Assembly: GCA_030621535.1 (NCBI GenBank)
Contig: JAUXHM010000004.1
Location: forward strand, 1 to 17,433
DNA: 17,433 nucleotides
Direction: 5' to 3'
DNA from: Candidatus Methanophagales archaeon
GTDB lineage: Archaea; Halobacteriota; Syntropharchaeia; Alkanophagales; Methanospirareceae
Shown: piece after piece, positions 1,492-16,189 of the stretch
How positions within the stretch are numbered: position 1 is the first letter of the stretch
Layout of the letters: each line of letters starts with the position of its first letter
Notes under the pieces: model-generated
Told to the model about the DNA's origin: nothing
The model's input: only the letters and a program-made list of their open reading frames with translations
The model's database searches: none
Position numbers and translations under genes: made by a program

Positions 1492-1587
1492 GGTTTAGCG
1501 GGTTAGCAGTTTAGCGGTTTAGCGGCTTGGCTGCTTAGCGGTTTGGTCAAAGGGACTGAGCCGCTAACGAGCTAAACCTCTAAACTA
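1492..1587. repeat. 8-bp degenerate tandem repeat in two inverted arms
   Basis: The left arm (1492-1547) is seven consecutive 8-bp units: GGTTTAGC, GGGTTAGC, AGTTTAGC, GGTTTAGC, GGCTTGGC, TGCTTAGC, GGTTTGGT. After an 8-bp spacer the right arm (1556-1587) has four units in the opposite orientation: CTGAGCCG, CTAACGAG, CTAAACCT, CTAAACTA. The arms can pair into an imperfect hairpin downstream of the convergent genes at 940-1473 and 1674-2237, so it might also act as a terminator. Confidence 0.85.
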
Positions 1588-1628
1588 AGGCACCAGAAAG
1601 CCTAAACAAGGGTTGGAACAGTCTTAAA

Positions 1629-1655
1629 ACTCTGCGTACTCTGCGCTCTCCGCGG
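1629..1655. repeat. 9-bp degenerate tandem repeat
   Basis: Three consecutive 9-bp units: ACTCTGCGT, ACTCTGCGC, TCTCCGCGG. It lies in the gap just after the stop of the minus-strand UPF0200 gene. The unit is unrelated to the 8-bp element 40 bp to the left but has the same tandem, degenerate style. Confidence 0.65.
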
Positions 1656-1673
1656 TGATAAATCACTATAAGG

Positions 1674-2237
1674 TCAATACTGGAGAAGAATTTCTTTTAT
1701 CTGCTCTTTAAACTCCTCTAAAGAACCTTCATTCTTTATAACCTTGTCTGCTTTTTTCATTGCTTCTCCCATTCCCCACCCTAACTCTCTCTCTTCCCGC
1801 TTTTTGAATTCGTCAATGCTCGATAAGTCCAAATCATCGCCTCTACCGCGGGATTTTATTCGTTCATATCTAAAGCGAAGTGGGGCATCCACGCACACAA
1901 GCACGAAATGGGCACCAAATTCGTTTTTAAACGTTTCTACTTCGGCAATCCCCCTTATTCCATCTATAACAATGACTTTTTCGGTTTTACCCGCGCTTTT
2001 CTTCTGCACTTTTATAGCGGGAATGCACCGTTTAGCAATCGCATCCATCCCTTCGTGTGCCCTCAGCTCGTTTGCAACTCTGCCTGCATTTTCGTCACTC
2101 AACGGAAGCCCTCGCTTTCTTAACTCTTCTCTTATCACCTCCCCCATCGTTATGACAGGAATGCCGAGTTCCTTTGCCACCAGAGCTGCTTCCGTTTTTC
2201 CCGCTGCTGGCGCACCGACAAACGCAAACACAAACAC
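1674..2237 (-). CDS. UPF0200 family nucleotide kinase-like P-loop protein
   Basis: P-loop NTPase of the archaeal UPF0200 group (COG0237-like, related to dephospho-CoA and adenylate kinases). Walker A is GAPAAGKT at residues 8-15, followed by a nucleotide-kinase-like segment (TMGEVIREELRKRGLPLSDENAGRVANELR), the strand VIVIDGIRG, and a lid-like basic segment (RFRYERIKSRGRGDD). The substrate is not established for the family. The GTG at 2237 is preferred because it places the P-loop at the family-typical position, overlaps the previous stop codon (TAGTG) and follows AGAGGT. A second possible GTG at 2264 would add nine residues and overlap the upstream gene by 28 bp. It is the last gene of a minus-strand run. 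Confidence 0.8.
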   Translation of the reverse strand: MFVFAFVGAPAAGKTEAALVAKELGIPVITMGEVIREELRKRGLPLSDENAGRVANELRAHEGMDAIAKRCIPAIKVQKKSAGKTEKVIVIDGIRGIAEVETFKNEFGAHFVLVCVDAPLRFRYERIKSRGRGDDLDLSSIDEFKKREERELGWGMGEAMKKADKVIKNEGSLEEFKEQIKEILLQY

Positions 2238-2683
2238 TAATACCGATACCTCTCCCGTAGCCACTTCTCTGCTGCTCCCCTCGCAAGTCTTCGCTCGGTT
2301 GATGCGTAAAATATGTTCACAACACAGAGTAATTCCCCTTTTCCCACCTTACCATCAGCGAAGGGGTGAAAAATAACTTCATCAAGCGCTCGCCTCTCCT
2401 CAACTCCCTTTGCCTTTCCCACCGCTGCGAGCGAAGAAACCACACCAAGTGCGTGTCGCATTATGAAGCAAGGTAAGACTATCGCCTTTGGAGGCAGCTC
2501 TATTTCGCCGATCTTTATGTTCACAAGTTCATTTTTCCTCACTTCTTTATCCTCCTCTGCGATGACCATTTCCCATTCCCCATGCGGACCGACGGTAAAC
2601 CCATAGGGGAACGCCTCTATTCCCCGCCGCTCTATTTCACCACCGATTTTATCTTTCCAGAAAACGCATCCTATTTTTGCCAT
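2237..2683 (-). CDS. DUF22-like conserved archaeal protein
   Basis: Protein of 148 residues without a predicted signal or membrane segment. It resembles the archaeal DUF22 family in the central part (about residues 45-130): acidic EEDKEVRKNELVNIKIGEIELPPKAIVLPC, then MRHALGVVSS, then DEVIFHPFADGKVGKGELLCVVNIF. The assignment is from memory of the family pattern and is moderate. Function is unknown. It ends by overlapping the start of the UPF0200 gene, so the two are probably translationally coupled. It starts 36 nt after the stop of the 117-aa gene upstream, with only a weak AAGG before the ATG. Confidence 0.65.
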   Translation of the reverse strand: MAKIGCVFWKDKIGGEIERRGIEAFPYGFTVGPHGEWEMVIAEEDKEVRKNELVNIKIGEIELPPKAIVLPCFIMRHALGVVSSLAAVGKAKGVEERRALDEVIFHPFADGKVGKGELLCVVNIFYASTERRLARGAAEKWLRERYRY

Positions 2684-2719
2684 GTTCTTTGGTTTGCCTT
2701 TTTACAATAAAAAGTTTAG

Positions 2720-3073
2720 CTAATCGCGAGATTGGACATCGCGGGTTTTGAAACTCTTCAATCGTTTATCCCAGTACGCATCCAGAATTTTTGATTCTTC
2801 AGTATCTTCAAATATGAGCTCGCTTTGCCCCGACCTGGTTATGGTCCCCACATAATTCCAGGAAACACTCTGCCATTCGTCTTCGGTCAGTTCCCTGCCG
2901 ATTGCTTCTTCGACAATCGCACGTTTTAAAACGAGTTTTTTAGCCCCCCTTATTCTTATCTGCATTCCGAAGGCGGTGTAATCTGCGTGGTTGCCTCTAC
3001 TACGGTTGTAGTCGCAAACGGCTTTTGCAATAGACCGATTCGCTGGCACTGCTTCAATAAAAACACTTACCAT
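2720..3073 (-). CDS. Hypothetical protein, 117 aa
   Basis: I do not recognise this family. The start is secure: ATG 3071-3073 is preceded by a strong AGGAGGGG about 9 nt upstream. The protein is soluble in appearance, with an N-terminal strand (VSVFIEAVP), a charged middle with LTEDEWQSVSWNYVG, and an acidic-then-basic C-terminus (FEDTEESKILDAYWDKRLKSFKTRD). There are no Cys clusters or membrane spans. It lies 40 nt downstream of the radical SAM gene and 36 nt upstream of the DUF22-like gene on the same strand, so co-transcription is likely, and a role with the radical SAM enzyme is possible but unproven. Confidence 0.7.
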   Translation of the reverse strand: MVSVFIEAVPANRSIAKAVCDYNRSRGNHADYTAFGMQIRIRGAKKLVLKRAIVEEAIGRELTEDEWQSVSWNYVGTITRSGQSELIFEDTEESKILDAYWDKRLKSFKTRDVQSRD

Positions 3074-3113
3074 TGGTCGCTACCCCTCCTATAGTTCTAA
3101 ACAAATCCCAAAA

Positions 3114-3875
3114 CTAAATAATATAAATCACTTCCTCGCCTTCCTCCCTTGTTCGTATCCTCACTTCTTTCAGAGATGCGGCGTGGTAAGCAATTGCAGC
3201 GAGTTCTTTCAGCTCTTCGTGGCTGAATACATCTTTTTCTTTTATTTCACCACTGGGGACAAGCTCAACCCGGCCCTGTTGTATCACATACGGGCAGTGT
3301 GCAGCCCCTGCCTCTTCCAGTTCTTTTGCTATGCGTTTCACTTCCTCTGCACCGGCAAGATGTTTGAATACCGTTGTTTGCACTTCGAGTTCTATTTTCG
3401 CACGCACACAAGTACCCAGTGTCTTTTTCACTCGTTCCTCCACCCCGGGGACTTTTGTTAGTTTGGCATAGAGCTTTTTATCAGACAGCGGCGCCTTAAT
3501 ATCGAGGAATATTTTGTCAATTAGCTCCTTTCTTAGCATGGATTCGATAGCTTCAGGATAAAATCCGTTTGTCTGCACGCCAACGAACAGTGACCGTGTC
3601 TTTGCATATTCAGCAATCGCTTCTATTGCGCCGGGCTGCATGAACGGTTCACCACCGGAAATAACGACGGCATCTATGAAATCCTCATTTTTGTTTATGT
3701 CTTCTTCTATCTCCTGCATCTCAACGTAGTTATCGCCTTCCAGCAGGTCATGATTCTGGCAATAGAGACATCGAAACGGGCACCCCCTGAGAAATATCAC
3801 CATCGAAGCTTTTCCTCGCCAGTCTATGGTAGAAAAGGGAACGATGCCGCCGAGGTTTATTCTTATTTGTGTCAT
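3114..3875 (-). CDS. Radical SAM glycyl-radical-enzyme activase (anaerobic RNR activase-like)
   Basis: Radical SAM enzyme of 253 residues, closest in pattern to the archaeal anaerobic ribonucleoside-triphosphate reductase activating proteins (NrdG2/PflA-like). The [4Fe-4S] cluster motif is CxxxCxxC at C32, C36, C39 (RGCPFRCLYCQN). The SAM-binding GGE motif follows at 74-76 (SGGEPFMQPG), then VGVQTNGFYPE and FLDIKAPL, as in this family. Such enzymes install a glycyl radical on a partner under anaerobic conditions; the partner (for example nrdD) is not in the window, so the substrate is inferred. No strong SD precedes the ATG. First gene of the minus-strand run ending at 1674. Confidence 0.88.
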   Translation of the reverse strand: MTQIRINLGGIVPFSTIDWRGKASMVIFLRGCPFRCLYCQNHDLLEGDNYVEMQEIEEDINKNEDFIDAVVISGGEPFMQPGAIEAIAEYAKTRSLFVGVQTNGFYPEAIESMLRKELIDKIFLDIKAPLSDKKLYAKLTKVPGVEERVKKTLGTCVRAKIELEVQTTVFKHLAGAEEVKRIAKELEEAGAAHCPYVIQQGRVELVPSGEIKEKDVFSHEELKELAAIAYHAASLKEVRIRTREEGEEVIYII

Positions 3876-3896
3876 TGATGCTCACGCTCAAATCCA

Positions 3897-4017
3897 AGAA
3901 CCACAAGATTACACAGATTTCCACGAGAAAACAATAACGGGAATTAGATTTCCATTGGCTATTCTATTCCGCATTGCTTCTTTTTCTTGTGTTAATCTCG
4001 TGAAATCTCGTGGTTTT
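3897..4017. repeat. Inverted intergenic repeat with about 10-bp internal period
   Basis: The left arm (3897-3931) contains AACCACAAGATTACACAG followed by ATTTCCACGAGAAAA. The right arm (about 3980-4017) is its near reverse complement (AACCACGAGATTTCACGA, then GATTAACACAAGAAAA when read on the minus strand). Within each arm CACRAGATT recurs about every 10-11 bp. The right arm ends exactly at the stop codon of the M42 peptidase gene, so the hairpin may serve as its transcription terminator. A related copy lies at 6784-6910. Confidence 0.85.
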
Positions 4018-5067
4018 TTAGAAGTAATTACCCACTTGCTCTATGGCTCGTGCAGCGAGTTCAGCGCATTTATCGAGGTCTTTCAGGCTTAACAACTCCA
4101 CAGGCGAGTGAATGTACCTTGTAGGCACACCGATTACACCCGTGGGTATGCCGCTTCTTGTAAGGTGGATTGATGTGGCATCCGTCGTGCCACCTTCCGA
4201 TACGCTGAGCTGGTAGTCTATATTATGCTTAGTTGCCGTCTCTTTGAGCCATTTCAGCACCGAGGGCGGCGTTATTATGCCGCGACCCGAGGCATCGGAA
4301 ACGGTAATCACAGGACCTTTATCCATCTCTACCGTCGTGTCTTTCTTTTCTATCCCCGGATGCCCCCCTGCTATATCGGTATCTATTGCGAGGGCAACGT
4401 CGGGATTGAGCCCGAATGCCGCCGTTCGTGCCCCTTTCAGCCCCACTTCCTCCTGCACCGTGCCTACTGCATAGACCTCGAAGTCAGTATTTGCGCGTTT
4501 AAGTGCTTCTACCATTATCGCAACGCCGGAACGATTGTCAAAGGCTTTACAGCTAACTCTTTCGTTTTTCAGGTCTACAAAATGCCTATCTACGGTAACA
4601 GGCGTTCCGATGGAAATCCCCATTTGTTCCACTTCTTCTTTGTCGCACGCACCCACGTCAATGAACATATCTTCTGACTTTATCGCCTTCTCACGCTCTT
4701 CCTTTTTCATTTTATGCGGTGGTTTTGAGCCTATAACACCATACACTTTCACCCCGTTCTCGGAATGCAGAATCACACGCTGGTTGAGCAGTGTCTGGTC
4801 AAACCACCCCCCTATAGTCAAGAATCTCAAGAAACCCTTGTCTTCTATGAGCTTCACCATAAGCCCTATTTCGTCAAGGTGCGCAGCAATCATAACAGAT
4901 GGTTTTTTCCCTTTCCTCGTGGCTATTAGATTCCCCAACCCGTCGGTCCGTATTTCGTCCACGTATGGCTTAATCTCGGCCTCTACGATTTCTCTTATCT
5001 CGCCTTCGTAGCCTGAAACACCATGTGCCTCGGCTAATTTTTTCAATAATTCTCTCATTTCTCCCAT
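4018..5067 (-). CDS. M42 family metallo-aminopeptidase (glutamyl aminopeptidase / TET-like)
   Basis: Cytosolic dinuclear-metal aminopeptidase of 349 residues, normal family length; members often form tetrahedral dodecamers that degrade peptides. Metal ligands and catalytic residues are all present: H63 and D65 (AAHLDEIG), D177 (FDNRSG), E206-E207 (TVQEEVG), D229 (AIDTD) and H320 (RYIHSPVE). The ATG at 5067 gives the usual short N-terminus (MGEMRELLKKLAEAHGVSGYEGE); the longer open frame upstream is only read-through of tRNA-Tyr. A weak GGGA precedes the start. The gene starts 35 nt after the 3' end of tRNA-Tyr and may be co-transcribed with it. Substrate preference cannot be told from sequence; older annotations call such proteins endoglucanase, which is wrong for this family. 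Confidence 0.93.
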   Translation of the reverse strand: MGEMRELLKKLAEAHGVSGYEGEIREIVEAEIKPYVDEIRTDGLGNLIATRKGKKPSVMIAAHLDEIGLMVKLIEDKGFLRFLTIGGWFDQTLLNQRVILHSENGVKVYGVIGSKPPHKMKKEEREKAIKSEDMFIDVGACDKEEVEQMGISIGTPVTVDRHFVDLKNERVSCKAFDNRSGVAIMVEALKRANTDFEVYAVGTVQEEVGLKGARTAAFGLNPDVALAIDTDIAGGHPGIEKKDTTVEMDKGPVITVSDASGRGIITPPSVLKWLKETATKHNIDYQLSVSEGGTTDATSIHLTRSGIPTGVIGVPTRYIHSPVELLSLKDLDKCAELAARAIEQVGNYF

Positions 5068-5102
5068 TTTTATTCCCAAGCGTTTTTGATAAAAACTTTC
5101 AG

Positions 5103-5225
5103 TCCCGCCTCCCGGATTTGAACCGGGGACATCGCGGTGTCCGCGCACGCGGTTATGTGACCTTTGGGAGGTGGTCAAAAATTCACTCTACAGCCGCGCA
5201 CTCTGCCAAACTGAGTTAAGGCGGG
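5103..5225 (-). tRNA. tRNA-Tyr(GUA) with intron
   Basis: The reverse strand folds as a tRNA: acceptor CCCGCCT/AGGCGGG, D stem ACTC/GAGT, anticodon stem CGCGG/CCGCG with loop CTGTAGA, anticodon GUA (5189-5191), five-base variable loop ATGTC, T arm CCCGG-TTCAAAT-CCGGG, discriminator A73. The C1-G72 pair is the archaeal/eukaryotic identity element for tyrosyl-tRNA synthetase. The mature length is 74 nt without the 49-nt intron. CCA is not encoded. Confidence 0.95.
5139..5187 (-). other. Archaeal tRNA intron (bulge-helix-bulge), between positions 37 and 38
   Basis: Removing 49 nt restores the seven-base anticodon loop. The splice sites fit a bulge-helix-bulge: 5' bulge AG^A, central helix CTGT with GCGG (two GU pairs), 3' bulge AC^A. 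Inside, TGACC pairs with GGTCA as a short stem. The intron also holds an extra CCGCG and CGCGG, copies of the two anticodon-stem strands, which could form a competing fold. Confidence 0.85.
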
Positions 5226-5263
5226 ATTTTATTTCCTCCATTAAAAATTACCATATTAATAAA

Positions 5264-5276
5264 CTTAAATATAAAA
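5264..5276 (-). promoter_or_regulatory. Probable TATA box of tRNA-Tyr
   Basis: On the minus strand TTTTATATTTAAG lies about 45 nt before the tRNA-Tyr 5' end, a plausible distance for an archaeal promoter with a short 5' leader. The surrounding gap (5226-5351) is very AT-rich and has no other gene signal. Confidence 0.45.
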
Positions 5277-5351
5277 ATAATTTTTGAAGATGAAGAAGTT
5301 AATTTAAAAAAATTCGAAATCCCAATACTACTCGTTTCGCATCCGAGATTT

Positions 5352-5582
5352 TTATACCTTTCTCTTCCTCTTTATCCCGTCTAACAGCCCATGAGCGTAA
5401 TTTATACACCCAAAGGCAGTGAAGTAATCTCCTTTTTCAAGATAATACTTCGTGTCCCCGTAATACCCCTTTGCAAGCTCTATCACCTCTTCCTCATTGC
5501 TAGCCCGCGATAACGAGTCCAGCTCGACCATACTCTCTTCAAAAAGCGTTATATCCTTTTTTATCCTTTCTGTTTCACTCAT
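5352..5582 (-). CDS. DUF357 family protein
   Basis: Small protein of 76 residues, almost entirely helical. It matches the archaeal DUF357 pattern: VIELAKGYYGDTKYYLEKGDYFTAFGCINYAHGLLDG, a two-helix hairpin with an aromatic-rich turn. The function of this family is not established; many members lie near translation or cofactor genes. It is transcribed divergently from the riboflavin reductase gene. A TATA-like CTTATAAAA (about 5616-5624 on the minus strand) is close enough to give a very short leader, and there is no good SD before the ATG. Confidence 0.85.
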   Translation of the reverse strand: MSETERIKKDITLFEESMVELDSLSRASNEEEVIELAKGYYGDTKYYLEKGDYFTAFGCINYAHGLLDGIKRKRKV

Positions 5583-5600
5583 TTGCGTGCTGTGTTACGA

Positions 5601-5637
5601 TAGGGTTCGATATGGTTTTATAAGTTAAAGAACCCTA
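5601..5637. promoter_or_regulatory. Perfect 8-bp inverted repeat over a divergent promoter
   Basis: TAGGGTTC (5601-5608) and GAACCCTA (5630-5637) are exact reverse complements separated by 21 bp, and the TATA-like box of the DUF357 gene lies between them. The position, between divergent DUF357 and riboflavin-reductase genes, suits an operator for a dimeric regulator. Function is inferred. Confidence 0.45.
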
Positions 5638-5679
5638 AAGCTATTGCATCTAAATTTTTATTGGGGCGGGGAAAAAACA

Positions 5680-6363
5680 ATGAACAGACCCTTTGTATTT
5701 ATAAACGCCGCAATGAGCGCGGATGGAAAAATATCTACGGTAGAAAGGAGACAGACGACAATAAGCGGTAAGGAAGATTTTGAGCGGGTTGATTCACTGA
5801 AGGAGGGAAGCGATGCAATCATGATTGGCATAGGCACTGTTTCCGCGGATAACCCTTCTTTAACTGTAAAATCCGAAAAGAGGAGGGAAGAAAGGCGAAA
5901 GGCGGGGAAAGATGCGAATCCGCTGCGAATAGTAGTGGACAGTAAGGCGAAAACACCTGTTGATGCAGAGATATTAAACAAAGGCGAAGGGAAACGGCTA
6001 ATTGCGGTTTCCGAACGGGCAATTGTGGAAGATATGGAAGGATTAGGAAAGAAAGCGGAGGTTCTAATTTGTGGTAAGGAGGAAGTAGATTTAAAGAAAC
6101 TCCTTTTTTTGGTGTGGCTGCGAGGCGTGAGTAGATTGATGGTAGAAGGCGGTGCAACGCTTAACTGGTCTTTAATTTCGCAGGGGCTCGTTGATGAGAT
6201 ATATACATACGTGGGCAACCTGATAATCGGCGGTGAAAACGCACCTACACTTGTGGATGGTGCAGGCTTTGCCGTAGAAGGAGAAATGATAAAGCTGGAG
6301 CTTTTAAGTGCGGAGCCAATGGACGAAGGTGTTTTGTTAAGGTGGCGCGTTCGCAATGCATAA
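5680..6363 (+). CDS. 2,5-diamino-6-ribosylaminopyrimidinone 5'-phosphate reductase
   Basis: RibD C-terminal-type NAD(P)H reductase of 227 residues (the archaeal RIB7/ArfC enzyme). It reduces the ribose side chain of the riboflavin precursor before deamination, feeding FAD and also F420/FO synthesis. Family motifs in order: FVFINAAMSADGKIST at the N-terminus, GSDAIMIGIGTVSADNPSLTV (about 45-65), PLRIVVDS (strand at the nucleotide site), MVEGGATLNWSLI and the closing LIIGGENAPTLVDGAGF. The ATG at 5680 is chosen over the in-frame ATG at 5644 because it gives the conserved start and follows GGGGCGGGGA. No deaminase domain is fused, as expected for archaea. No other rib gene is nearby. Confidence 0.92.
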   Translation: MNRPFVFINAAMSADGKISTVERRQTTISGKEDFERVDSLKEGSDAIMIGIGTVSADNPSLTVKSEKRREERRKAGKDANPLRIVVDSKAKTPVDAEILNKGEGKRLIAVSERAIVEDMEGLGKKAEVLICGKEEVDLKKLLFLVWLRGVSRLMVEGGATLNWSLISQGLVDEIYTYVGNLIIGGENAPTLVDGAGFAVEGEMIKLELLSAEPMDEGVLLRWRVRNA

Positions 6364-6383
6364 AAAGCGTTTTCGTGTTCGTC

Positions 6384-6411
6384 AACCTGAAACCTGAGAA
6401 CTGAGAACAGA
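6384..6411. repeat. Heptad tandem repeat (AACCTGA type)
   Basis: Four consecutive 7-bp units: AACCTGA, AACCTGA, GAACTGA, GAACAGA, in the gap between the riboflavin reductase and the EMC6-like gene. The same heptad (AACCTCA/AACCTGA) recurs inside the tRNA-Gly intron at 8439-8473. Confidence 0.75.
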
Positions 6412-6454
6412 AATAATAATTAATATAAGTAACTTAAATTGATAGTGCGAGTCA

Positions 6455-6769
6455 ATGGAGAACGATAAAAGAGCGCGGGATATGAAGAAGAAGGAGAAAG
6501 AGAAAGCAGAATACAAGGAAGGGTTGATAAAGACGCTAACGCCTCTCCTGTTTGGCGCTCTCGCGGGTGTTATATCATTCTACGTGATAAAAAATCCTAT
6601 ATCCGAAGATGGTCTGCTTATCGCGATTCTGATGGTCATGGTGCAGAAATTTGTCTATCCGTTCTTACATACGAGCTTAGAAGGGGCAAAGGATTGGATT
6701 TATATCTCGTTTATAACCCTTTTCTGCTGGTTTATCTCGTTCTCACTGTTGCTGAACATTCACATTTAA
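6455..6769 (+). CDS. EMC6-like small membrane protein
   Basis: Protein of 104 residues with a very charged N-terminus (about 25 residues of Lys/Glu/Arg) and three predicted transmembrane segments at about 29-46, 53-72 and 82-102. The pattern around the second and third segments (MVMVQKFVYPFL, then KDWIYISFITLFCWFISFSLLLN) resembles archaeal proteins related to eukaryotic EMC6, a core subunit of the ER membrane protein insertase. A role in membrane-protein insertion is inferred from the family and not from anything local. No SD is seen before the ATG; an AT-rich stretch around 6420-6435 could be the promoter, giving a near-leaderless mRNA. Confidence 0.68.
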   Translation: MENDKRARDMKKKEKEKAEYKEGLIKTLTPLLFGALAGVISFYVIKNPISEDGLLIAILMVMVQKFVYPFLHTSLEGAKDWIYISFITLFCWFISFSLLLNIHI

Positions 6770-6783
6770 AAAGCGCCTTTTAT

Positions 6784-6910
6784 AACCACAGATTACACAA
6801 CACTTTTTCTTTTTTACAAAAAGAAAACCTGTGCTAAAAGAAAAACAAATGTTTTTTTGTTTTTGCTTGCAAAAAGTTCTGTGTTAATCTTGTGAACTCT
6901 CGTGGTTTTT
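6784..6910. repeat. Inverted intergenic repeat, second copy of the 3897-4017 type
   Basis: The left arm begins AACCACAGATTACACAAC (6784-6801). The right arm (6876-6910) reads TTCTGTGTTAATCTTGTG followed by AACTCTCGTGGTTTTT, nearly identical to the right arm at 3980-4017. Between them lie A/T-rich hairpins (CTTTTTCTTTTT with AAAAAGAAAA; AAAAACAAA with TTTGTTTTT). It sits between two convergent genes, where it may terminate both, and it overlaps the 3' end of ruvC. Confidence 0.8.
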
Positions 6911-7384: not shown

Positions 7385-7479
7385 ATTATAATCACGTATG
7401 TATCTAATAAATAAGAAGAATAAAATTAATAAATAATTTAGAAGGGAAGAGAAAAGAAGAGAAAGGAGCGTAAAAACAA

Positions 7480-8043: not shown

Positions 8044-8056
8044 GGGATGTTAGAGG

Positions 8057-8353
8057 ATGGATAAAGGAGAGGAAAATAAGCGCTTAAAGATACTTGAGAA
8101 GAAGAAAAAAGAGGTAAAGATAGAAATAGAAGGTGAAGACCACACGCTTTTAGCTCCGCTATCATCAAAACTGCTGGAGAATGAAAAGGTTGACATCGCA
8201 ACCTATAGCATCAAGTATACACTGATGAGCAATCCTGTTTTGTACGTGAAGATGAGGGAGGGGGACCCGATAGAAGCGGTGAAGTCCGCTGCTGCTTCAC
8301 TTGCATCAGAATTTGAGGAGTTCTCGTCGAAATATAAAGCGGCAATAGTCTAG
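8057..8353 (+). CDS. rpoL: DNA-directed RNA polymerase subunit L (Rpo11)
   Basis: Small RNA polymerase subunit that pairs with subunit D to form the assembly platform, the counterpart of eukaryotic Rpb11. It has 98 residues. Family hallmarks are LKILEKKKKEVKIEIEGEDHTLL, then ATYSIKYTLMSNPVLYVKMREGDPIEAVKSAAASL. The stop TAG (8351-8353) lies inside the next gene: the last four codons (AAIV) and stop are the first 15 nt of tRNA-Gly. It is probably co-transcribed with csl4. The ATG follows AGAGG almost directly, with a better-spaced AGGGG about 10 nt upstream. Confidence 0.93.
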   Translation: MDKGEENKRLKILEKKKKEVKIEIEGEDHTLLAPLSSKLLENEKVDIATYSIKYTLMSNPVLYVKMREGDPIEAVKSAAASLASEFEEFSSKYKAAIV

Positions 8354-8374
8354 CGGTAGGACACGGGCTTCCCA

Positions 8375-8482
8375 ACATGAGCGGGGTGCCGTGCCGGGTG
8401 TTAGTTGTCTGGTGTGAGTAGCTCATAAGTTACACACTTCAAACCTCAACCCTCAAACCTGACACCTACAAGGATGGGAAAT
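8375..8482 (+). other. Archaeal tRNA intron (bulge-helix-bulge), 108 nt
   Basis: Inserted between positions 37 and 38. The motif is nearly ideal: 5' bulge CA^A, central helix TTCC with GGAA, 3' bulge AT^A, and outer helix CAT with ATG. The interior is not a typical intron core but an inverted heptad-repeat element (8397-8473). Confidence 0.9.
8397..8473. repeat. Heptad repeat element inside the tRNA-Gly intron
   Basis: Left arm units: GGTGTTA, GTTGTCT, GGTGTGA (8397-8417), with two more degenerate units before it. Right arm units (8439-8473): TCAAACC, TCAACCC, TCAAACC, TGACACC, TACAAGG. The arms are roughly inverted (GGTGTGA against TCAAACC-type units), leaving a loop around GTAGCTCATAAGTT. 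The right arm belongs to the same AACCTGA family as 6384-6411. Confidence 0.75.
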
Positions 8483-8517
8483 AGCCTGTAACCCGGGTTC
8501 GATCCCCGGTTGCCGCA

Positions 8518-8577
8518 TCAAACTTTTTAAAAAAAAAGTTTGACCAAAAACGCTTCGCAGAAAAAGAAAAGCGTTTT
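8518..8577. terminator. Two hairpins after tRNA-Gly
   Basis: A perfect 11-bp stem, TCAAACTTTTT (8518-8528) with AAAAAGTTTGA (8533-8543), has a four-A loop. A 9-bp stem follows, AAAACGCTT (8547-8555) with AAGCGTTTT (8569-8577). They begin one base after the tRNA and could terminate the csl4-rpoL-tRNA transcript or act as 3' processing signals. There is no long U-run after the second stem, so termination is inferred. Confidence 0.5.
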
Positions 8578-8640
8578 CGGAAAAGAAAAAATTTTAAGAG
8601 TAACTAAATACGGAATAGAACAGGAATGAGGATATGAGAT

Positions 8641-9729: not shown

Positions 9730-9742
9730 AAAATAAAATATT

Positions 9743-9816
9743 GACACAGATGGATCGTAAAAATCCGTAATGTTAAACCTAAATAAGTCCGCGTAAATCA
9801 GTGTAAATCCGTGTCT
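9743..9816. repeat. 10-bp degenerate repeat in two inverted arms
   Basis: The right arm has three 10-bp units: GTCCGCGTAA, ATCAGTGTAA, ATCCGTGTCT (9787-9816). The left arm starts GACACAGAT (9743-9751), the reverse complement of ATCCGTGTC with one mismatch, and continues with TCGTAAAAATCCG. It lies after the aRF1 stop and may contribute to its 3' end. Confidence 0.7.
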
Positions 9817-9835
9817 TAAATAGATGGGAGTTACA

Positions 9836-9844
9836 TTTTATATA
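9836..9844 (+). promoter_or_regulatory. TATA box of the TraB-family gene
   Basis: TTTTATATA lies 38-46 nt before the ATG at 9882. Initiation about 25 nt downstream would leave a leader of only some 14 nt, consistent with the absence of an SD. Confidence 0.5.
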
Positions 9845-9849
9845 CAATG

Positions 9850-9890
9850 GCAAATGTAAAGTGCAAAGCGGAAATTGAAAAATGCAAAAT
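9850..9890. repeat. Heptad tandem repeat covering the TraB-family start codon
   Basis: GCAAAT is followed by 7-bp units GTAAAGT, GCAAAGC, GGAAATT, GAAAAAT, GCAAAAT. The start ATG (9882-9884) spans the junction of the last two units, and the first three codons (ATG CAA AAT) are repeat sequence. Confidence 0.7.
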
Positions 9891-11174: not shown

Positions 11175-11185
11175 AGGAGGTAAAA

Positions 11186-11488
11186 GTGACCGAAAAAGGC
11201 GAAAAAATAGTCATCTGGCCTGCGTATTTAACAGCGGGGAAGACAAAAGGCGAAGGTCGAATCGTGTCGAGAAGGAATGCGGTGAAATCACCAAAGGTTG
11301 AGGAAATAGAAAAGGTTGCAAGAATGCTCGACCTGGAACCCGTGGTGGAAAAAGGAAAAGCATATCCGAAAACGCACTGGCTTCAAAGTGGAAGAGTGCG
11401 GGTGAACAAAGCAGGAAGCAAAGGAGAGATTGTGAAGAAGATTGCAATTGCTATAAAAGAGATACGAGAGAAATCCAAGGGAAGGTAA
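11186..11488 (+). CDS. srp19: Signal recognition particle protein SRP19
   Basis: Assembly protein of the archaeal SRP: it clamps helices 6 and 8 of 7S RNA so that SRP54 can bind. It has 100 residues. Typical features are KIVIWPAYLTAGKTKGEGRIVSRRNAVKSPKVEEIEKVARMLDLEPVVEKGKAYP and the RNA-binding SGRVRVNK with a basic C-terminus. The GTG at 11186 is chosen because a perfect AAGGAGG (11174-11180) lies 5 nt before it and the protein then begins at the conserved strand; the longer in-frame ATG at 11147 lies inside the TraB-family gene. It sits between the TraB-family gene and argD, probably in one transcript. Confidence 0.92.
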   Translation: MTEKGEKIVIWPAYLTAGKTKGEGRIVSRRNAVKSPKVEEIEKVARMLDLEPVVEKGKAYPKTHWLQSGRVRVNKAGSKGEIVKKIAIAIKEIREKSKGR

Positions 11489-11495
11489 AAATAAA

Positions 11496-12677
11496 ATGTT
11501 TTCATCCCCAGAAGAGGTTTTCGAGAAGGAAAAGAGATACATAATGCAGACATACAAACGACCGCGAATAGTGCTACGAGAGGGAAAAGGAGCGACGGTA
11601 AAAGATTTTTTTGGTCGTGAGTATATAGATTGTGTCGGAGGCATTGCCGTAAACGCGGTTGGGTACTGCCATCCTGCAGTGGTGAATGCGATAAAAGAGC
11701 AAGCGGGGAAGCTCATGCACACCTCGAACTTATATTACACGGAACCGCAGGTGCAGCTTGCAGAGAAACTTTCGGGGATAACCGGTATGGACAAGGTCTT
11801 TTTCTGTAATTCTGGTACTGAGAGTATAGAAGCGGCATTGAAGCTGGCATGTAAAGCGACATTTGGGAAGCGTAAGTTCATAGCTGCGGAAGGTAGTTTT
11901 CACGGTAGAACACTCGGGTCGTTAAGCATAACGTTTGGAACCAAATTAAGAGGTGTATTTGAGCCTTTACTGCGGGACGGCGTGGAATTTGTGCCATACA
12001 ACAATGCCGATGCAATCAGAGATGCAATAGACACCAACACTGCTGCAGTTATATTAGAACCCATCCAGGGAGAAACAGGAATAGTAGTTCCTTCTGCGGG
12101 ATATTTGAACGAGGTACGGGAAATATGCAGTGAGAAAGGCGTTTTGCTGATTTTGGATGAAATACAAACGGGTTTTGGTCGTACCGGTAAATGGTTTTGC
12201 AAGGAACACGAGGGCATAGAGCCAGATATAATGACCGTGGCGAAAGCGCTGGGTGCGGGTTTTCCAATAGGTGCAATGCTCGCAAAAGAGGGAATAGAAT
12301 TTGAAACCAGCGAGCACGGGTCGACCTTTGGCGGCAATCCACTGGCGTGTGCGGCGGCATTGGCATCTATAAAGGTGATAAAGGAGGAAGGGTTGGTAGA
12401 ACAATCAAGCGAGCTGGGTGCGTATTTCATGGAAAAGGTTCATGACGAGGGGATAGGGCTATATTCAAATCCGGTAGTGAAGGAGATAAGAGGAAAAGGG
12501 CTGATGATCGGGGTAGAATTAACGAAGCCATGTGGCGAAGTAGTAGACAAAGCGATTGAACGTGGGATTTTAATAAATTGCACTTCTGATACCGTGATAC
12601 GGTTGGTGCCACCGCTGGTTATAAGTAAAGAGCAGATAGACCGGGTGATTTCGGTTTTGTGCGAGATTATTAAATAG
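11496..12677 (+). CDS. argD: Acetylornithine aminotransferase (ArgD family)
   Basis: Class III PLP aminotransferase of 393 residues, normal length. It transfers an amino group from glutamate to N-acetylglutamate semialdehyde in arginine synthesis; archaeal homologues can also act on the lysine pathway or on succinyl-diaminopimelate. Motifs: CNSGTESIEAALKLA (phosphate binding), GSFHGRTLG, EPIQGETG, D221 in LDEIQTGFGRTG, the PLP lysine K250 (TVAKALGAGFPIGAML), and GSTFGGNPLACAAALA. The GGAAGG preceding the ATG overlaps the end of SRP19, 7 nt upstream. No other arg genes are in the window, so the exact substrate is inferred. It ends before a new promoter. Confidence 0.92.
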   Translation: MFSSPEEVFEKEKRYIMQTYKRPRIVLREGKGATVKDFFGREYIDCVGGIAVNAVGYCHPAVVNAIKEQAGKLMHTSNLYYTEPQVQLAEKLSGITGMDKVFFCNSGTESIEAALKLACKATFGKRKFIAAEGSFHGRTLGSLSITFGTKLRGVFEPLLRDGVEFVPYNNADAIRDAIDTNTAAVILEPIQGETGIVVPSAGYLNEVREICSEKGVLLILDEIQTGFGRTGKWFCKEHEGIEPDIMTVAKALGAGFPIGAMLAKEGIEFETSEHGSTFGGNPLACAAALASIKVIKEEGLVEQSSELGAYFMEKVHDEGIGLYSNPVVKEIRGKGLMIGVELTKPCGEVVDKAIERGILINCTSDTVIRLVPPLVISKEQIDRVISVLCEIIK

Positions 12678-12707
12678 ACCAGGAATAAGGTAGAATGGGA
12701 ACAAACA

Positions 12708-12725
12708 CCGAAAAACTTAAATATA
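12708..12725 (+). promoter_or_regulatory. BRE/TATA promoter of the AIM24-family gene
   Basis: CCGAAAAA (BRE-like, 12708-12715) runs into CTTAAATATA (12716-12725), about 53 nt before the ATG at 12779. The arrangement closely matches the promoter at 13505-13520. Confidence 0.65.
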
Positions 12726-12778
12726 CCCAACATTAGAGGATTATAGTGAAAGGAAAATATAGATAGGGGGTTGTAAGT

Positions 12779-13501
12779 ATGGAATACGAAATAATTGGTG
12801 ATAATCTCCAGATGGTCGTTACGAAATTATCTTCTGGAGAGATGGTGTATGGAGAGGCGGGTGCAATGATTTATATGAGTGAGAACATGCAGATGAATGC
12901 AAAGACAAAAGGAGGTTTTCTAAAGGGGCTTAAGCGAAAATTTACGGGTGAAACGTTTTTTATGACCGAATTCACGCCGAATGGAGATGGATTCGTGTCT
13001 TTTGCTGGCAATGCACCGGGGAGAATAAAAGCAATTGAGCTCAAGGGCAACGAATTCCTTGCGCAGAAGGATGCTTTTTTGTGCGCTCAAGATGGCGTTG
13101 ACCTCGACATAGCATTTACGAAGAAGTTAGGAGCGGGACTTTTTGGTGGAGAAGGATTTATATTGGAGAGATTGGGTGGAAATGGAACTGCGTTTATCCA
13201 TGCTTGCGGTGATTTTGTAGAGATGGACCTCGCATCTGGAGAAGTTGTGAAGGTGGACACCGGCTCTGTAGTGGGATTCGACAGCGGCGTGGGATACGAC
13301 ATCACGATGGCAGGAAACGTGAAAAGCATGCTGTTCGGAGGGGAGGGCATCTTCTTGACTACCTTGCGGGGTCCGGGTCACGTGATTTTGCAATCCATGA
13401 CGGTAGCGAATTTAGCGGCTGCGCTTAGACCGTTCATGCCATCGGGAACATCCGGAAGGAGCAGTTCGCCGCTCAGTGTTGGTGGATTGCTTGGGGATTG
13501 A
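12779..13501 (+). CDS. AIM24 family protein (TIGR00266)
   Basis: Protein of 240 residues with the glycine-rich beta-sandwich repeats of the AIM24/TIGR00266 family. Typical stretches are GEMVYGEAGAMIYMSENMQM, GETFFMTEFTPNGDGFVSFAGNAPGRIKAIEL, FGGEGFILERLGGNGTAFIHACGDFVEMDL and FGGEGIFLTTLRGPGHVILQSM. There is no signal peptide or membrane span. The biochemical function is unknown; the yeast relative is a mitochondrial inner-membrane organiser, and bacterial and archaeal homologues are often next to membrane or stress genes. Here it lies upstream of a lipoprotein and a Yip1-like membrane protein, a membrane-related setting. GGGGGTT lies upstream of the ATG. Confidence 0.9.
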   Translation: MEYEIIGDNLQMVVTKLSSGEMVYGEAGAMIYMSENMQMNAKTKGGFLKGLKRKFTGETFFMTEFTPNGDGFVSFAGNAPGRIKAIELKGNEFLAQKDAFLCAQDGVDLDIAFTKKLGAGLFGGEGFILERLGGNGTAFIHACGDFVEMDLASGEVVKVDTGSVVGFDSGVGYDITMAGNVKSMLFGGEGIFLTTLRGPGHVILQSMTVANLAAALRPFMPSGTSGRSSSPLSVGGLLGD

Positions 13502-13504
13502 AAA

Positions 13505-13520
13505 CCGAAATATTTAAATA
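13505..13520 (+). promoter_or_regulatory. BRE/TATA promoter of the lipoprotein gene
   Basis: CCGAAA (13505-13510) is followed by TATTTAAATA (13511-13520), in the same form as the promoter upstream of the AIM24-family gene. The start codon at 13556 is 36 nt further on. Confidence 0.65.
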
Positions 13521-13555
13521 CTCTTCTAAGAATGATTTACGAGGAGGTAAAAGAA

Positions 13556-14284
13556 ATGGTAGAAAAATTGAAAAATTGGGCAATAGTTGTAGTAGGGCTA
13601 CTTCTTATTGCAGTGATAGCAAGTGCGGGATGTGTCGGTGAAAAAGCACCAGAGGAAGGTGAGGCGGCGCAGGCAGGAGAAGTTACAACACCAACTACAC
13701 AAACACCTACCGCTCCATCAATCGGCGAATCGTTAGGCGACCTTCTGGGTAAGGCAAAAGGCATAACTTCCGTCAAATATGACATGGTGATGGCACCCTC
13801 CGGCGAGCCATCAGTGACATCCACGGTATGGATGAAAAGGAATAATATGAGGATGGAAATAACCGCGGAAGGGCAGAAGATGATTACAATAATGAATGGG
13901 GACAAGCAAGAAATGTATATGTATTTCCCAGAACAGAACATGGCAATGAAAATGGATTTCAGCGAAGCTCCAGAATCAGCCGTAGAAGAAGCTGTGTCTA
14001 TCGAGCAATATAACCCAACGGTTATCGGCACCGAAACAGTAGATGGAATGCTTTGCACCGTTGTCGAATATGTTGTCCCTGAGGGAAGTGCGAAGATGTG
14101 GCTATGGCAAAAGCATGGGTTCCCTGTTCGAATGGAGATGACGGCATCTGATGGTACATCGAGGATAGACTGGAAGAATATCGAATTCGGAGACATTTCA
14201 GACGACAAGTTTAAACTGCCTGCTGGTGTGGAGATAATGGAGATGCCAAGTGGTGTGCCCAGCATGCCCGGTGGTATGCAGTAA
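13556..14284 (+). CDS. LolA-like surface lipoprotein
   Basis: Exported protein of 242 residues. It begins with a signal sequence (NWAIVVVGLLLIAVIASAGC) whose C26 in SAGC looks like a lipobox cysteine. A Thr/Pro/Glu-rich linker follows (about 30-60). The main domain (about 70-235) resembles LolA/LppX-type lipoprotein folds: KYDMVMAPSG, VTSTVWMKRNNMRMEI, YMYFPEQNMAMKMDF, CTVVEYVVPEGSAKMWLWQKHGFPVRMEM and IEFGDISDDKFKLPAGVEIM. Such domains bind lipid-like ligands; the ligand here is unknown. ATG 13556 is chosen over ATG 13532 because GAGGAGGT (13541-13548) is correctly spaced. The last residues are Met/Pro/Gly-rich. The Yip1-family gene follows 25 nt later. Confidence 0.8.
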   Translation: MVEKLKNWAIVVVGLLLIAVIASAGCVGEKAPEEGEAAQAGEVTTPTTQTPTAPSIGESLGDLLGKAKGITSVKYDMVMAPSGEPSVTSTVWMKRNNMRMEITAEGQKMITIMNGDKQEMYMYFPEQNMAMKMDFSEAPESAVEEAVSIEQYNPTVIGTETVDGMLCTVVEYVVPEGSAKMWLWQKHGFPVRMEMTASDGTSRIDWKNIEFGDISDDKFKLPAGVEIMEMPSGVPSMPGGMQ

Positions 14285-14309
14285 GGAGAAATAAAAAAGA
14301 GGTAAAAAA

Positions 14310-14918
14310 ATGGATATAAATGCAATTGTGGACCGAGCAAAGAATGTGGTGCTGAAACCCAAAGAGACGTTAGAAGCAGCAAAAGCTGAACAGCCGAGCA
14401 TGCAAGACCTGATTATGTATGTAGCAATCGTTGCGATACCCACGCTGATAGGTATCATAATAGGATATGGTGTCGTCGGAGTTGGAGCTCTTTGGGCTCA
14501 CTTTAGAGTACCGATGCACTGGGCAGTAACATGGGGTATCATGCAGTATGTGCTCTCGATAATTGGCGTCATCGTCTTTGGATACGTTGTGAATATGCTG
14601 GCACCGAGTTTTTCATCTAAGCAAGACCAGATACAGGCGACAAAGCTCGTTGCATACGCATCTACACCAGGACTCCTTGCCGGGATTTTCAATATAATAC
14701 CGTCAATTTCGTTCCTGGTCCTTCTGGCAGGTCTTTATGGCTTGTACATCCTGTATTTAGGCATACCCGTGTTTATGGAGACGCCTGAAGACAAAAGAAT
14801 TATATACCTGATCGTAGCGATTGCCGTGTATATCATCATTATGGTGGTGGTTGGTGCGATCACGAGTGCGGTGATGTGGGGGATAATCGGCGGCCCTTTT
14901 TCAGGGTTTCATCCATAA
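14310..14918 (+). CDS. Yip1-domain multi-spanning membrane protein
   Basis: Protein of 202 residues with about five transmembrane segments (LIMYVAIVAIPTLIGIIIGYG, WGIMQYVLSIIGVIVFGYVVNML, LLAGIFNIIPSISFLVLLAGLYGLYILYLGI, IIYLIVAIAVYIIIMVVVGAI). The layout, with an N-terminal NPKETLEAAK-like amphipathic start (VLKPKETLEAAKAEQPS) and the ASTPGLLAGIFNIIP loop, fits the Yip1 superfamily found in archaea and bacteria, of unknown function there. AGAGGT precedes the ATG. It is almost certainly in an operon with the lipoprotein and may anchor or assist it. Confidence 0.82.
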   Translation: MDINAIVDRAKNVVLKPKETLEAAKAEQPSMQDLIMYVAIVAIPTLIGIIIGYGVVGVGALWAHFRVPMHWAVTWGIMQYVLSIIGVIVFGYVVNMLAPSFSSKQDQIQATKLVAYASTPGLLAGIFNIIPSISFLVLLAGLYGLYILYLGIPVFMETPEDKRIIYLIVAIAVYIIIMVVVGAITSAVMWGIIGGPFSGFHP

Positions 14919-14930
14919 AATAAATAGAGT

Positions 14931-14962
14931 AGGAGGATTAAGATTTCCTCCTTCATTTTTTT
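14931..14962. terminator. Hairpin plus T-run terminator
   Basis: AGGAGGA (14931-14937) and TCCTCCT (14946-14952) form a 7-bp stem with an 8-nt loop, followed by a run of seven T (14956-14962). It lies between the convergent Yip1-family and MscS genes. The T-run serves the plus-strand transcript. Confidence 0.65.
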
Positions 14963-16010
14963 ATTTCCCGTAATACACTTTTCTCACAGGCCACGATATT
15001 TCAATCTCTTCTTCATCGTATCGCTTCTTCAACGCTTTTATAAATTCATGTATAACAATATATTTAGCCGCAGGTTCCACCACACGCAAAATAATCGAGA
15101 AATTGATGTTCGAGTCGCCAAACGTATGATACCTGATGAAAGGTTCAAAGGTTTTAACCGCTCCCGGAGCGGTTTCCAGTATCTGCTTCGCTACGTCAAT
15201 CGTGACTTTCTCCACTTTTTCCAAATCCGACCCGTAAGCAACGCCACATTGAATTACCGCGGACATCTCAAGCACCGGTAACGAATAATTTGTGATTGCA
15301 CTTTCCGCGAGTTTCGAATTTGGAACGATGACAAGCGTATTTGGCAGGGTTCGCACCCTCGTGGACCGCCAGCCTATATCTTCGACAAAACCTGAAATAC
15401 TTCCCTCTATCTCTATATAATCTCCAAAATTTATTGGCCGGTCAGAGATAATATGTAATCCCGCGAAGAGGTTTGAAAGCGTGTTTTGTAGAGCCAGCCC
15501 AACTGCTAAACCACCCAACCCAAAAGCCGCAAGTAAAGGGCTTATTTCTATCTCAAAATGGTCTAGAATCATTAAAAAAGCCATTAGATAAATAACAATC
15601 GCAACTACGTTGCCCATCAATTTCGGCATCTTCTCATATTTCTTCTGCACCCTCAACCAGTGACTTACCAGCACGCCCAAAACTCGCGATACAATCAGAG
15701 ACAGCAGCAATATACTACCGACGAAAAATATCCCATCTATCTCCGCGGAATACTTTTCGAGGTAAGATAGAGATCTCAATGCGAAATACAAACCAGCAAA
15801 CATGATGAAAATGCACACCGGTTTTGTAACTATTTTCAATATGGTGTCATCAATATCGGTCTTTGTTCGATCAGCAAGCCCTCTCACGTATTTCACCAGG
15901 ATAAAATGAACTATCCTGGCAAGAAGAAGGAAGCTTATCAAAAGTAAGAAGAAGTGAAAATATTCATGCTGAATCAAACTTTGCACTGTCGCTGTCTCTA
16001 TTACCGCCAT
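14961..16010 (-). CDS. MscS family mechanosensitive ion channel
   Basis: Small-conductance mechanosensitive channel of 349 residues that releases solutes on hypo-osmotic shock. Several N-terminal transmembrane helices (HFFLLLISFLLLARIVHFIL, PVCIFIMFAGLYFALRSL, VGSILLLSLIVSRVLGVLV, VVAIVIYLMAFLMIL) lead into the pore helix, with the conserved small-residue face AAFGLGGLAVGLALQNTLSNLFAGL. The beta domain follows with INFGDYIEIEGSISGFVEDIGWRSTRVRTLPNTLVIVPNSKLAESAITNY, then the alpha/beta C-terminal domain. No SD is seen; a TATA-like TTTATATC (minus strand, near 16042-16050) suggests a short leader. The 3' end abuts the terminator shared with the Yip1-family gene. Confidence 0.95.
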   Translation of the reverse strand: MAVIETATVQSLIQHEYFHFFLLLISFLLLARIVHFILVKYVRGLADRTKTDIDDTILKIVTKPVCIFIMFAGLYFALRSLSYLEKYSAEIDGIFFVGSILLLSLIVSRVLGVLVSHWLRVQKKYEKMPKLMGNVVAIVIYLMAFLMILDHFEIEISPLLAAFGLGGLAVGLALQNTLSNLFAGLHIISDRPINFGDYIEIEGSISGFVEDIGWRSTRVRTLPNTLVIVPNSKLAESAITNYSLPVLEMSAVIQCGVAYGSDLEKVEKVTIDVAKQILETAPGAVKTFEPFIRYHTFGDSNINFSIILRVVEPAAKYIVIHEFIKALKKRYDEEEIEISWPVRKVYYGK

Positions 16011-16077
16011 GCTTTTATGTTTGTTTGTATCTATGTGTAATAGATATAAATGTATTTGCTCAATATCTTGTGGGTTA

Positions 16078-16112
16078 AATTCTAAGCACGAAACTCTAAA
16101 TCCTAAACACCT
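16078..16112. repeat. Heptad tandem repeat (AATCCTA type)
   Basis: Five 7-bp units: AATTCTA, AGCACGA, AACTCTA, AATCCTA, AACACCT. It lies in the gap upstream of the MscS gene, about 70 bp before its start on the minus strand. Confidence 0.7.
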
Positions 16113-16154
16113 ATGTTAAGTTCGTCCTCACTATTTTCTTATTCCTTTGTCCTA

Positions 16155-16189
16155 TTTAAAGTTTTCCATTTTTCATTTTTTACTCATGC
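16155..16189. repeat. Heptad tandem repeat, pyrimidine-rich strand
   Basis: Units TTTAAAG, TTTTCCA, TTTTTCA, TTTTTTA, CTCATGC. Read on the minus strand the units (TGAAAAA, TGGAAAA) resemble the GAAAAAT/GGAAATT units of the element at 9850-9890. The rest of the gap 16011-16257 has an imperfect GC-rich palindrome near 16216-16231 and nothing else I can identify. Confidence 0.65.

Follow-up and report, generated by a model that had tools for sequence, protein, structure and literature searches.

Repeats of period 7 to 10 between the genes of an ANME-1 archaeon as probable dispersed hairpin elements reshaped by slippage

A 17,433-nucleotide stretch of DNA from a Candidatus Methanophagales archaeon (ANME-1, anaerobic methanotrophic archaea group 1), hereafter the window, carries degenerate short tandem repeats with periods of 7, 8, 9 or about 10 bp in many of the gaps between its genes, and the question raised by this locus is whether such arrays arise where they stand or arrive as parts of larger elements. 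An initial annotation, made from the sequence alone, regarded them as one style of sequence with a different motif at each site, and proposed slippage or a mobile hairpin as a common source. The explanation favored here, with a probability of about 0.6, is that the arrays belong to hairpin elements that have been dispersed by some mechanism and then reshaped by slippage. Short non-coding elements would consist of one arm, a loop and an inverted second arm, and such arms would account for most arrays of 8 to 10 bp and for a part of those of 7 bp. A copy would enter an intergenic gap, or the loop of another element, whole and with its own ends, and after arrival the arms would gain, lose or drift by whole units through slippage or unequal exchange, giving rise to their degenerate look. 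The window is contig C36 of a metagenome-assembled genome (MAG) of 1,090,776 bases in 170 contigs (60.6% complete), of which 330,920 bases (~30%) were read.

The excess of these periods extends across the host genome. In 146 gaps from 41 host contigs (26,319 of 257,681 bases), lag identity exceeded that of shuffled sequence at lags 7, 8, 9 and 10 (z = 6.7, 3.2, 7.7 and 7.3, respectively); the z values for lags 5 and 13 were 1.0 and 0.0. An increase was also seen at lags 3, 6 and 12 (z = 4.3, 6.1 and 4.6), for which coding remnants are probably the source. The gaps held 66 arrays scoring at least 10, compared to 2.3 in shuffles, and these were concentrated at lag 7 (18), lag 8 (8), lag 9 (6) and lag 10 (27), with none at lag 5, one each at lags 6, 11, 12 and 13, and three at lag 14. 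Five samples of DNA covered by open reading frames (ORFs), each of equal size, held 5 to 13 such arrays. Because the window supplied only four of the 49 arrays listed at a score of 11 in the host contigs, the rest lying elsewhere in the genome, the finding is independent of the initial choice of sites. The initial annotation had named autocorrelation against shuffled gaps as the comparison by which its observation should stand or fall; with the excess at lags 7–10 and 66 arrays versus 2.3, the observation passed that test.

A limited vocabulary underlies the arrays, with ACACAGATTAACGCAGATTAACACAGAT, CGCAGAGTACGCAGAG, CTCTAAACCGCTAAAC, AGGTGTGAG and GCATCCT recurring in the host list. The motifs form a small set (10-bp CRCRGATTWA, 9-bp CRCRGAGNR, 8-bp GGTTTAGC and several 7-bp words). 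Sites with 10-bp and 9-bp units are members of families present in many copies, in which loops and ends are conserved, contrary to the view that each site has a motif of its own and that no dispersed sequence is involved. When one 17.6-kb host contig was compared with the genomes of four sisters and with two from other genera, copies of 115–160 bp elements with common ends were recovered at 80–98% identity, at least dozens of them in the four sisters. Full elements of both families are ~120–150 bp in length and usually possess two inverted arms. The 10-bp type I element runs from an AT-rich left end through three 10-bp units, a loop and three inverted units to the tail TTAAATAGAAGGAAGTTATACTTTATATACA, based on a consensus of 72 rows, some of which are the same copies read on both strands. 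In 914,161 bases of fetched DNA, partly chosen for containing elements, 104 type I tails were counted. The 9-bp element is laid out as TTTATCAC-CGCGGAGAGCGCAGAGTACGCAGAG-loop-CTCTGCGTTCTCCGTGTGCTCTGCG-GTGAAATTT. The dinucleotide AC directly precedes 47 of the 58 two-unit 9-bp arrays in ANME-1, where chance predicts ~1 in 16, and an inverted partner lies within 170 bp for 30 of the 58. Separately, a double palindrome of 44–53 bp (GGGCTCTGCCC...AGCCCTGAAAGGGCTT), similar to repetitive extragenic palindromic (REP) sequences, was observed inserted alone or between type I arm units (L027 4143–4186, L089 8232, L101 19050 and L139 4766–4818).

Comparison of orthologous gaps reveals whole elements that are present in one genome and absent from its sister. 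Six host gaps (S1–S6) were aligned with four sisters, such that each could be followed through the genomes G000, G283, G224, G268 and G150. At S1, a type I element occurs in G000, G224 and G268 and the site is exactly empty in G283, while S6 has a type I element in G150 only. S5 is empty in G000 and G283, contains a type I element in G268 and, in G150, a type I element enclosing an 8-bp hairpin. In G000, the 9-bp hairpin at S4 encloses an 8-bp one; G283 and G150 have 9-bp hairpins with other loops there, and G224 and G268 have nothing. Four configurations are found among the five genomes at S3: in G000 the loop of a 9-bp hairpin contains a 7-bp one, in G283 and G224 the 9-bp hairpin is bare, G268 combines a 10-bp repeat with GCATCCT, and G150 has a pair of ATCCTAA arrays. 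At S3, S4 and S5, an 8-bp or 7-bp hairpin is nested in a 9-bp or 10-bp loop that is bare in a sister. A wider scan identified 59 query sites with a clean gap in 83 comparisons, the rows of which are not independent events; a period 7–10 array was in the gap or within 30 bases of it at 29 of the 59, and the others were gene indels or different repeats. Whole type I elements are missing from a sister at a minimum of seven separate loci. Hairpins carried by one relative and lacking in another are in agreement with the initial reading. Homologous recombination between gaps, with the arms serving as homology and no transposition taking place, could replace one cassette with another, as the differing repeat types at S3 and the partial left-arm deletions common to G224 and G268 at S2 might suggest, but the clean empty sites at S1 and S6, with both flanks intact and no leftover arm, make this the least probable of the explanations considered.

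Once in place, the arrays also change in length by whole units. Ten of 39 insertions of 3–40 bases in period 7–10 arrays were unit multiples, where the 159 insertions found elsewhere in intergenic DNA predict 2.7 (Poisson p = 5e-4), with 4 of 17 in the 7-bp, 2 of 6 in the 9-bp and 4 of 10 in the 10-bp class, a variation of the sort that the slippage proposed initially would produce. Change by whole units would also follow from a purely local origin, in which slippage occurs in place, the inverted arm is produced by template switching at a hairpin and nothing is dispersed, and a period of 7 has been proposed to reflect the polymerase footprint (PMC4692102, PMC4679880). A local origin is nevertheless improbable as a general account, and difficult to maintain for the families with 10-bp and 9-bp units: loops, ends and arms are almost identical at dozens of unlinked loci, whole elements are cleanly absent in sisters, and these units also occur in other genera and phyla. 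Where a 7-bp array stands free, with no second arm to pair with, slippage alone may have produced it.

Beyond the host, the patterns were sought in 294 genomes of the phylum, with the reversed pattern as control. The 10-bp pattern occurred in 38 genomes, nine of them outside the ANME-1 family (control 0), the 9-bp pattern with its edge in 49 (control one match in one genome) and the 7-bp pattern in 20 (control 0). The three motifs searched, taken at first to be site-specific, thus recur in many other genomes with controls at or near zero. Within the family, 32 of 51 genomes have the 10-bp pattern, and it is lacking in genera g3 (7 of 7 genomes) and g10 (4 of 4). Genomes G260, G275, G231 and G095 contain the same 10-bp arms around other loops and in other flanks. 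In viral contigs, the 10-bp pattern was found in 25 stretches (~20 distinct) versus 2 for the reversed control, the YCTAAGCAC-type 7-bp pattern in 3 stretches (raw count), and the 9-bp pattern in at least 120 stretches versus 53 for the reversed control. Due to these control counts and the many controls embedded in ORFs (30 of 47 inside same-strand ORFs, compared to 59 of 168 viral 9-bp arrays), the viral 9-bp count alone is weak and the argument rests on the AC edge, which directly precedes 124 of the 168 viral arrays (chance ~1 in 16; the reversed control was not matched to the edge).

Additionally, the viral 9-bp arm recruited plasmid records of Gemmatirosa, Bacteroides and Pseudoalteromonas, with best E-values of 8e-6 to 3e-4. 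The stretches read in records of Gemmatirosa, Bacteroides ovatus, B. finegoldii and Pseudoalteromonas are hairpins that share this unit and its edge, bounded by AACC or CACC on one side and GGTT or GGTG on the other. The viral 10-bp arm matched Bacteroides and Phocaeicola records (E = 0.004 to 0.7), and B. finegoldii stretches contain both the 9-bp and the 10-bp forms. Matches to cyanobacterial and Azospirillum plasmids were weak (E = 0.2 to 0.6), the one in Nostoc having a clear arm on the left and a poor one on the right. In a phage collection, 18 records matched the viral 9-bp arm, of which 14 were 19-base, chance-like matches in Klebsiella phages and four were weak matches in unnamed gut phages. 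It should be noted that two records labelled as B. finegoldii plasmids (L328 and L330) look like chromosome pieces because they carry dnaN and trmB.

The 9-bp and 10-bp units behind an outer AC edge are encountered again in viral contigs and in Bacteroidota, Gemmatimonadota and Pseudomonadota, and by sequence it is the unit and the edge that are common across phyla, not the loops and flanks. Such sharing may reflect horizontal spread or convergence. The two families would fall in a wider class that includes bacteria and phages, with the unit CRCRGA(G/T)NN(N) and an outer edge of AC/GT. A broader proposal, put forward tentatively, is that of a self-dispersing class with arms of helical-turn-sized repeats (9 bp CRCRGAGNR, 10 bp CRCRGATTWA) and an AC/GT edge, extending through archaea, several bacterial phyla and phages, with a single widespread predicted machinery and the nested 7- and 8-bp hairpins as further members. 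Convergence is central to a different explanation, that the arrays are selected binding or regulatory sites, with a DNA-bending or nucleoid protein dictating their spacing, or that they act on RNA near start codons. The paired 8-, 9- and 7-bp arrays of Geobacter metallireducens have been proposed as sites for integration host factor (IHF) or HU (PMC2700814) and TAACTGA arrays precede start codons in the Beggiatoaceae (PMC4679880), and an ATG stands at the right edge of 31 of the 104 type I tails, 17 of which open an ORF of ≥60 aa (raw counts). Selection for such sites is unlikely, however, given that presence and absence change quickly, unrelated motifs replace each other at one gap and a copy also lies within a tRNA intron. 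Further, viral 9-bp arrays have no strand bias relative to downstream genes (74 same-strand, 76 opposite), and a role as translation enhancer was rejected on this count.

Dispersal of the hairpin elements would resemble transposition, with a trans-acting enzyme recognizing the arms or the edges. The Y1 transposase (PF01797) is a lead in this regard, though no answer as to the mover: it is found in 23 of 32 genomes with the element and 6 of 19 without (Fisher p = 0.008), and this association, together with two IS200-like Y1 genes in the host genome (L090 7948–8301 and L091 7353–7670, one with an in-frame stop), would be compatible with REP-like elements moved by a Y1 transposase of the REP-associated (RAYT) or IS200 type. 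The ANME-1 elements resemble REPs in being small, multicopy, palindromic and intergenic (PMC3733652), and are hairpins without a clear target duplication. Conversely, REPs are 20–40 bp in length and bear GTAG or CGTC tags (PMC3733652), whereas the ANME-1 elements are far longer and have neither tag at their AC edges; the ~900 bp on each side of both host Y1 genes contain no 9- or 10-bp arms by eye; and no Y1 match was obtained in 9 of the 32 element genomes, including all five element-bearing g2 genomes (MAGs 56–98% complete). With no match in these nine genomes, Y1 is not favored as a necessary mover, and an identity with REP-like elements has a low probability, on a par with that of a purely local origin.

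Several results weigh against dispersed hairpin elements. No mobilising enzyme was found, and among the nine element genomes lacking a Y1 match, all incomplete MAGs, is G098 with 110 element matches. Insertion edges ranged from -12 to +10 with no common value indicative of a fixed-length target duplication, though BLAST edges are too coarse to reveal a short one. None of the six insertions in 8-bp arrays was a unit multiple. Folding was no better than shuffles for 9743–9816 and the tRNA intron, and an inverted partner accompanied 24 of 112 viral 9-bp arrays (49 of 560 random stretches), leaving most without one. Whole ANME-1 elements likewise had no homologue outside: 9743–9816 had no match in plasmids at E = 0.1, the ANME-1 9-bp element reached only E = 2–5 outside, and the exact ANME-1 arm occurred in 0 viral contigs.

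For the ten sites of the initial annotation, the best lag within 5–12 was compared with 1000 dinucleotide shuffles per site, with p-values uncorrected for the prior picking of the sites. The quoted sequence is present as given at all ten. The period is clear at six, with p = 0.001 at 1492–1587 (lag 8), 1629–1655 (lag 9) and 6384–6411, 8439–8473 and 9850–9890 (lag 7), and p = 0.003 at 9743–9816 (lag 10). It is marginal at 16078–16112 and 16155–16189, and not significant at 3897–4017 (p = 0.12) and 6784–6910 (p = 0.42), both of which fold as long hairpins (Table 1). The description of the sites as intergenic holds except at 8439–8473, inside a tRNA-Gly intron, and 9850–9890, which overlaps a start codon, and the inverted arms reported at several sites are recovered by folding at three of the ten (1492, 3897 and 6784). 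The observation as a whole is partly confirmed and its interpretation partly supported.

Table 1. Repeat elements and the tRNA gene of the window, with the evidence for each
Feature	Position	Strand	Evidence
8-bp hairpin with GGTTTAGC-like units in the left arm, a loop and GCCGCTAACGAGCTAAACC as right arm	1492–1587		lag 8 z 7.5; fold z -3.5
9-bp element remnant: loop (GCACCAGAAAGCCTAAACAA...GTCTTAAAA) and right arm CTCTGCGTACTCTGCGCTCTCCGCG (1631–1655), end GGTGA	1588–1667		lag 9 z 4.1
10-bp type II hairpin (ACCACAAGATTACACAGATTTCCACGAG ... CTCGTGAAATCTCGTGGT)	3897–4017		fold z -5.2
7-bp array CCTGAAA/CTGAGAA	6384–6411		lag test; +1 unit in L003, -1 unit in L005
Type II hairpin whose loop contains an A/T-rich hairpin	6784–6910		fold z -2.9
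tRNA-Gly gene, anticodon CCC (by eye), intron of ~106 bases (~8377–8482)	8339–8517	+	Rfam RF00005, 47.2 bits
7-bp array in the tRNA-Gly intron (TCAAACC, CTGACAC)	8439–8473		lag 7 p = 0.001
10-bp type I element, eroded, with a single unit on the left, a loop, the right arm TAAATC-AGTGTAAATC-CGTGTC and the tail TTAAATAGATGGGAGTTACATTTTATATACA	9743–9846	+	type I consensus match
7-bp array of AAATG/AAGTG/AAGCG/AATTG units over the start codon at 9882	9850–9890	+	lag test
7-bp array TCTAAGCACGAAACTCTAAATCCTAAA	16078–16112		p = 0.039; no relative covers the site
Weak 7-bp array CATTTTT	16155–16189		p = 0.034, lag 8 nearly equal; no relative covers the site

The release-factor protein of the window has 96–99% identity to four ANME-1 records (L002–L005); matches at 77–99% were found for 22 of 23 loci, in records titled mostly Methanophagales or ANME-1. 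Four records titled Nitrosotalea or Methanosarcinales (L012, L009, L018 and L019) have ANME-1-like release-factor genes (79–82% protein identity), and their titles may be wrong. The loop and right arm of the 8-bp hairpin at 1492–1587 are nested in 10-bp elements of the sisters G150 (at S5) and G268 (L088 3511–3707), and L005 has a shorter version of this hairpin. The 9-bp remnant that adjoins it is absent from L005; its left arm was not found, and full-length copies with its loop and arm occur in, for example, L047, L037, L057, L060 and L091. Copies similar to the type II hairpin at 3897–4017 are present at L003 608–719, L003 1880–1997, L014 and L015, with other sequence in its place in L002. 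The hairpin at 6784–6910 has the same ends and a different interior in L003, is without a counterpart in L002 and corresponds to a clean gap against an ANME-1 record. The left arm of the eroded type I element is longer by 20 bases in L003 and by 10 in L004, and L002 and L003 both lack one unit (AAAGCGG) of the array over the start codon. Words of the array at 16078–16112 also occur in a G150 insertion (L097 3499–3640). A further hairpin, ACGCTTCGCAGAAAAAGAAAAGCGTTTTC at 8559–8590, has copies off-site in L002, L006 and L013.

The tRNA-Gly gene was missed by ARAGORN and detected by Rfam. Upstream of its intron array is a TGTGAGG/TGTTAGT arm (~8397–8422), and the intron of L003 differs by +21 in one arm and -7 in the other, besides small gaps. 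Of 23 ANME-1 sequences, 15 contain the intron, at very different lengths, and 8 lack it; 7-bp arms are confined to the window and L002–L005, the other ten introns being shorter or otherwise built. In L021 (G37ANME1), the intron contains a different tandem repeat of ~28–30 bp. On the minus strand at 5103–5226, a tRNA-like sequence with an intron can be made out by eye, unreported by ARAGORN and by Rfam at the gathering score.

The short tandemly repeated repetitive (STRR) sequences of cyanobacteria, cited at first as a partial analogue, are supported as such: these are degenerate heptanucleotide arrays found also in rnpB and a tRNA-Leu intron, as here in a tRNA-Gly intron. Their motifs probably differ from those of ANME-1, and the host intron is presumably self-splicing for STRR and an archaeal splicing intron for the ANME-1 tRNA-Gly. 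Miniature inverted-repeat transposable elements (MITEs) end in the inverted repeats of a transposon and are flanked by a target duplication of fixed length; the ANME-1 elements are like them in being small, multicopy, palindromic, intergenic, and present or absent at orthologous sites. A simple slippage microsatellite shares the whole-unit length change but not the dispersed copies with common loops and ends.

In Geobacter metallireducens, ‘global regulator binding sites’ of classes 1–3 have units of 8 bp (GTTGCTYN), 9 bp (TCTCCGTSY) and 7 bp (MTYCTGA), arranged as opposite-strand pairs at variable distance in dozens of copies, for which the available text proposes, and does not show, IHF/HU binding (PMC2700814). 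The 7- to 9-bp repeats of ANME-1 are similarly paired on opposite strands, as seen in the partnered 9-bp arrays and the folds, and two successive 7-bp units in L060 (ATTCTGA CTTCTGA) fit class 3. Unlike the present case, that system is bacterial and read in terms of IHF/HU, and within the accessible portion of the account the comparisons of empty sites, nesting and domains made here have no counterpart (PMC2700814). The GGGAATC heptamers of Xanthomonas form intergenic period-7 arrays (186 and 183 per genome, with 70 and 75 inverted pairs) that likewise vary in length between close relatives, but consist of a single G-rich, G-quadruplex-forming motif, with no 8-, 9- or 10-bp families in the sections available (PMC4692102). 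The TAACTGA arrays of the Beggiatoaceae are intergenic heptamers with a patchy distribution over distant bacteria, for which horizontal transfer is suggested, without a mechanism in the text available; they differ in having one motif in direct repeats, with inverted pairs very rare (PMC4679880). The tandem repeats of Borgs are similarly fast-evolving and derive from a setting of methane-oxidising archaea, but are described as perfect units taken from local sequence, unique to each locus and nearly absent from host chromosomes (PMC9879509). A search of the literature that included few subscription journals returned no description of these archaeal elements, and the matches listed for arm strings were unrelated by title, one being a Thermotoga promoter table. 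Opposite-strand pairs of 7-, 8- and 9-bp repeats (Geobacter metallireducens, PMC2700814) and inverted heptamer pairs (Xanthomonas, PMC4692102) are already known; new to this analysis are the archaeal case, the 10-bp family, the nesting, the empty sites in sisters and the unit and edge common across phyla.

Should the arrays be dispersed hairpin elements, much of the intergenic ‘junk’ of ANME-1 would constitute a population of nested, unit-slipping elements, and the tRNA-Gly intron would provide an example of such repeats settled in a tRNA intron. The elements would offer fast markers for separating closely related ANME-1 strains. And the repeats of Geobacter, Xanthomonas and the Beggiatoaceae would be drawn into one question, that of what moves them and whether they cross between domains.

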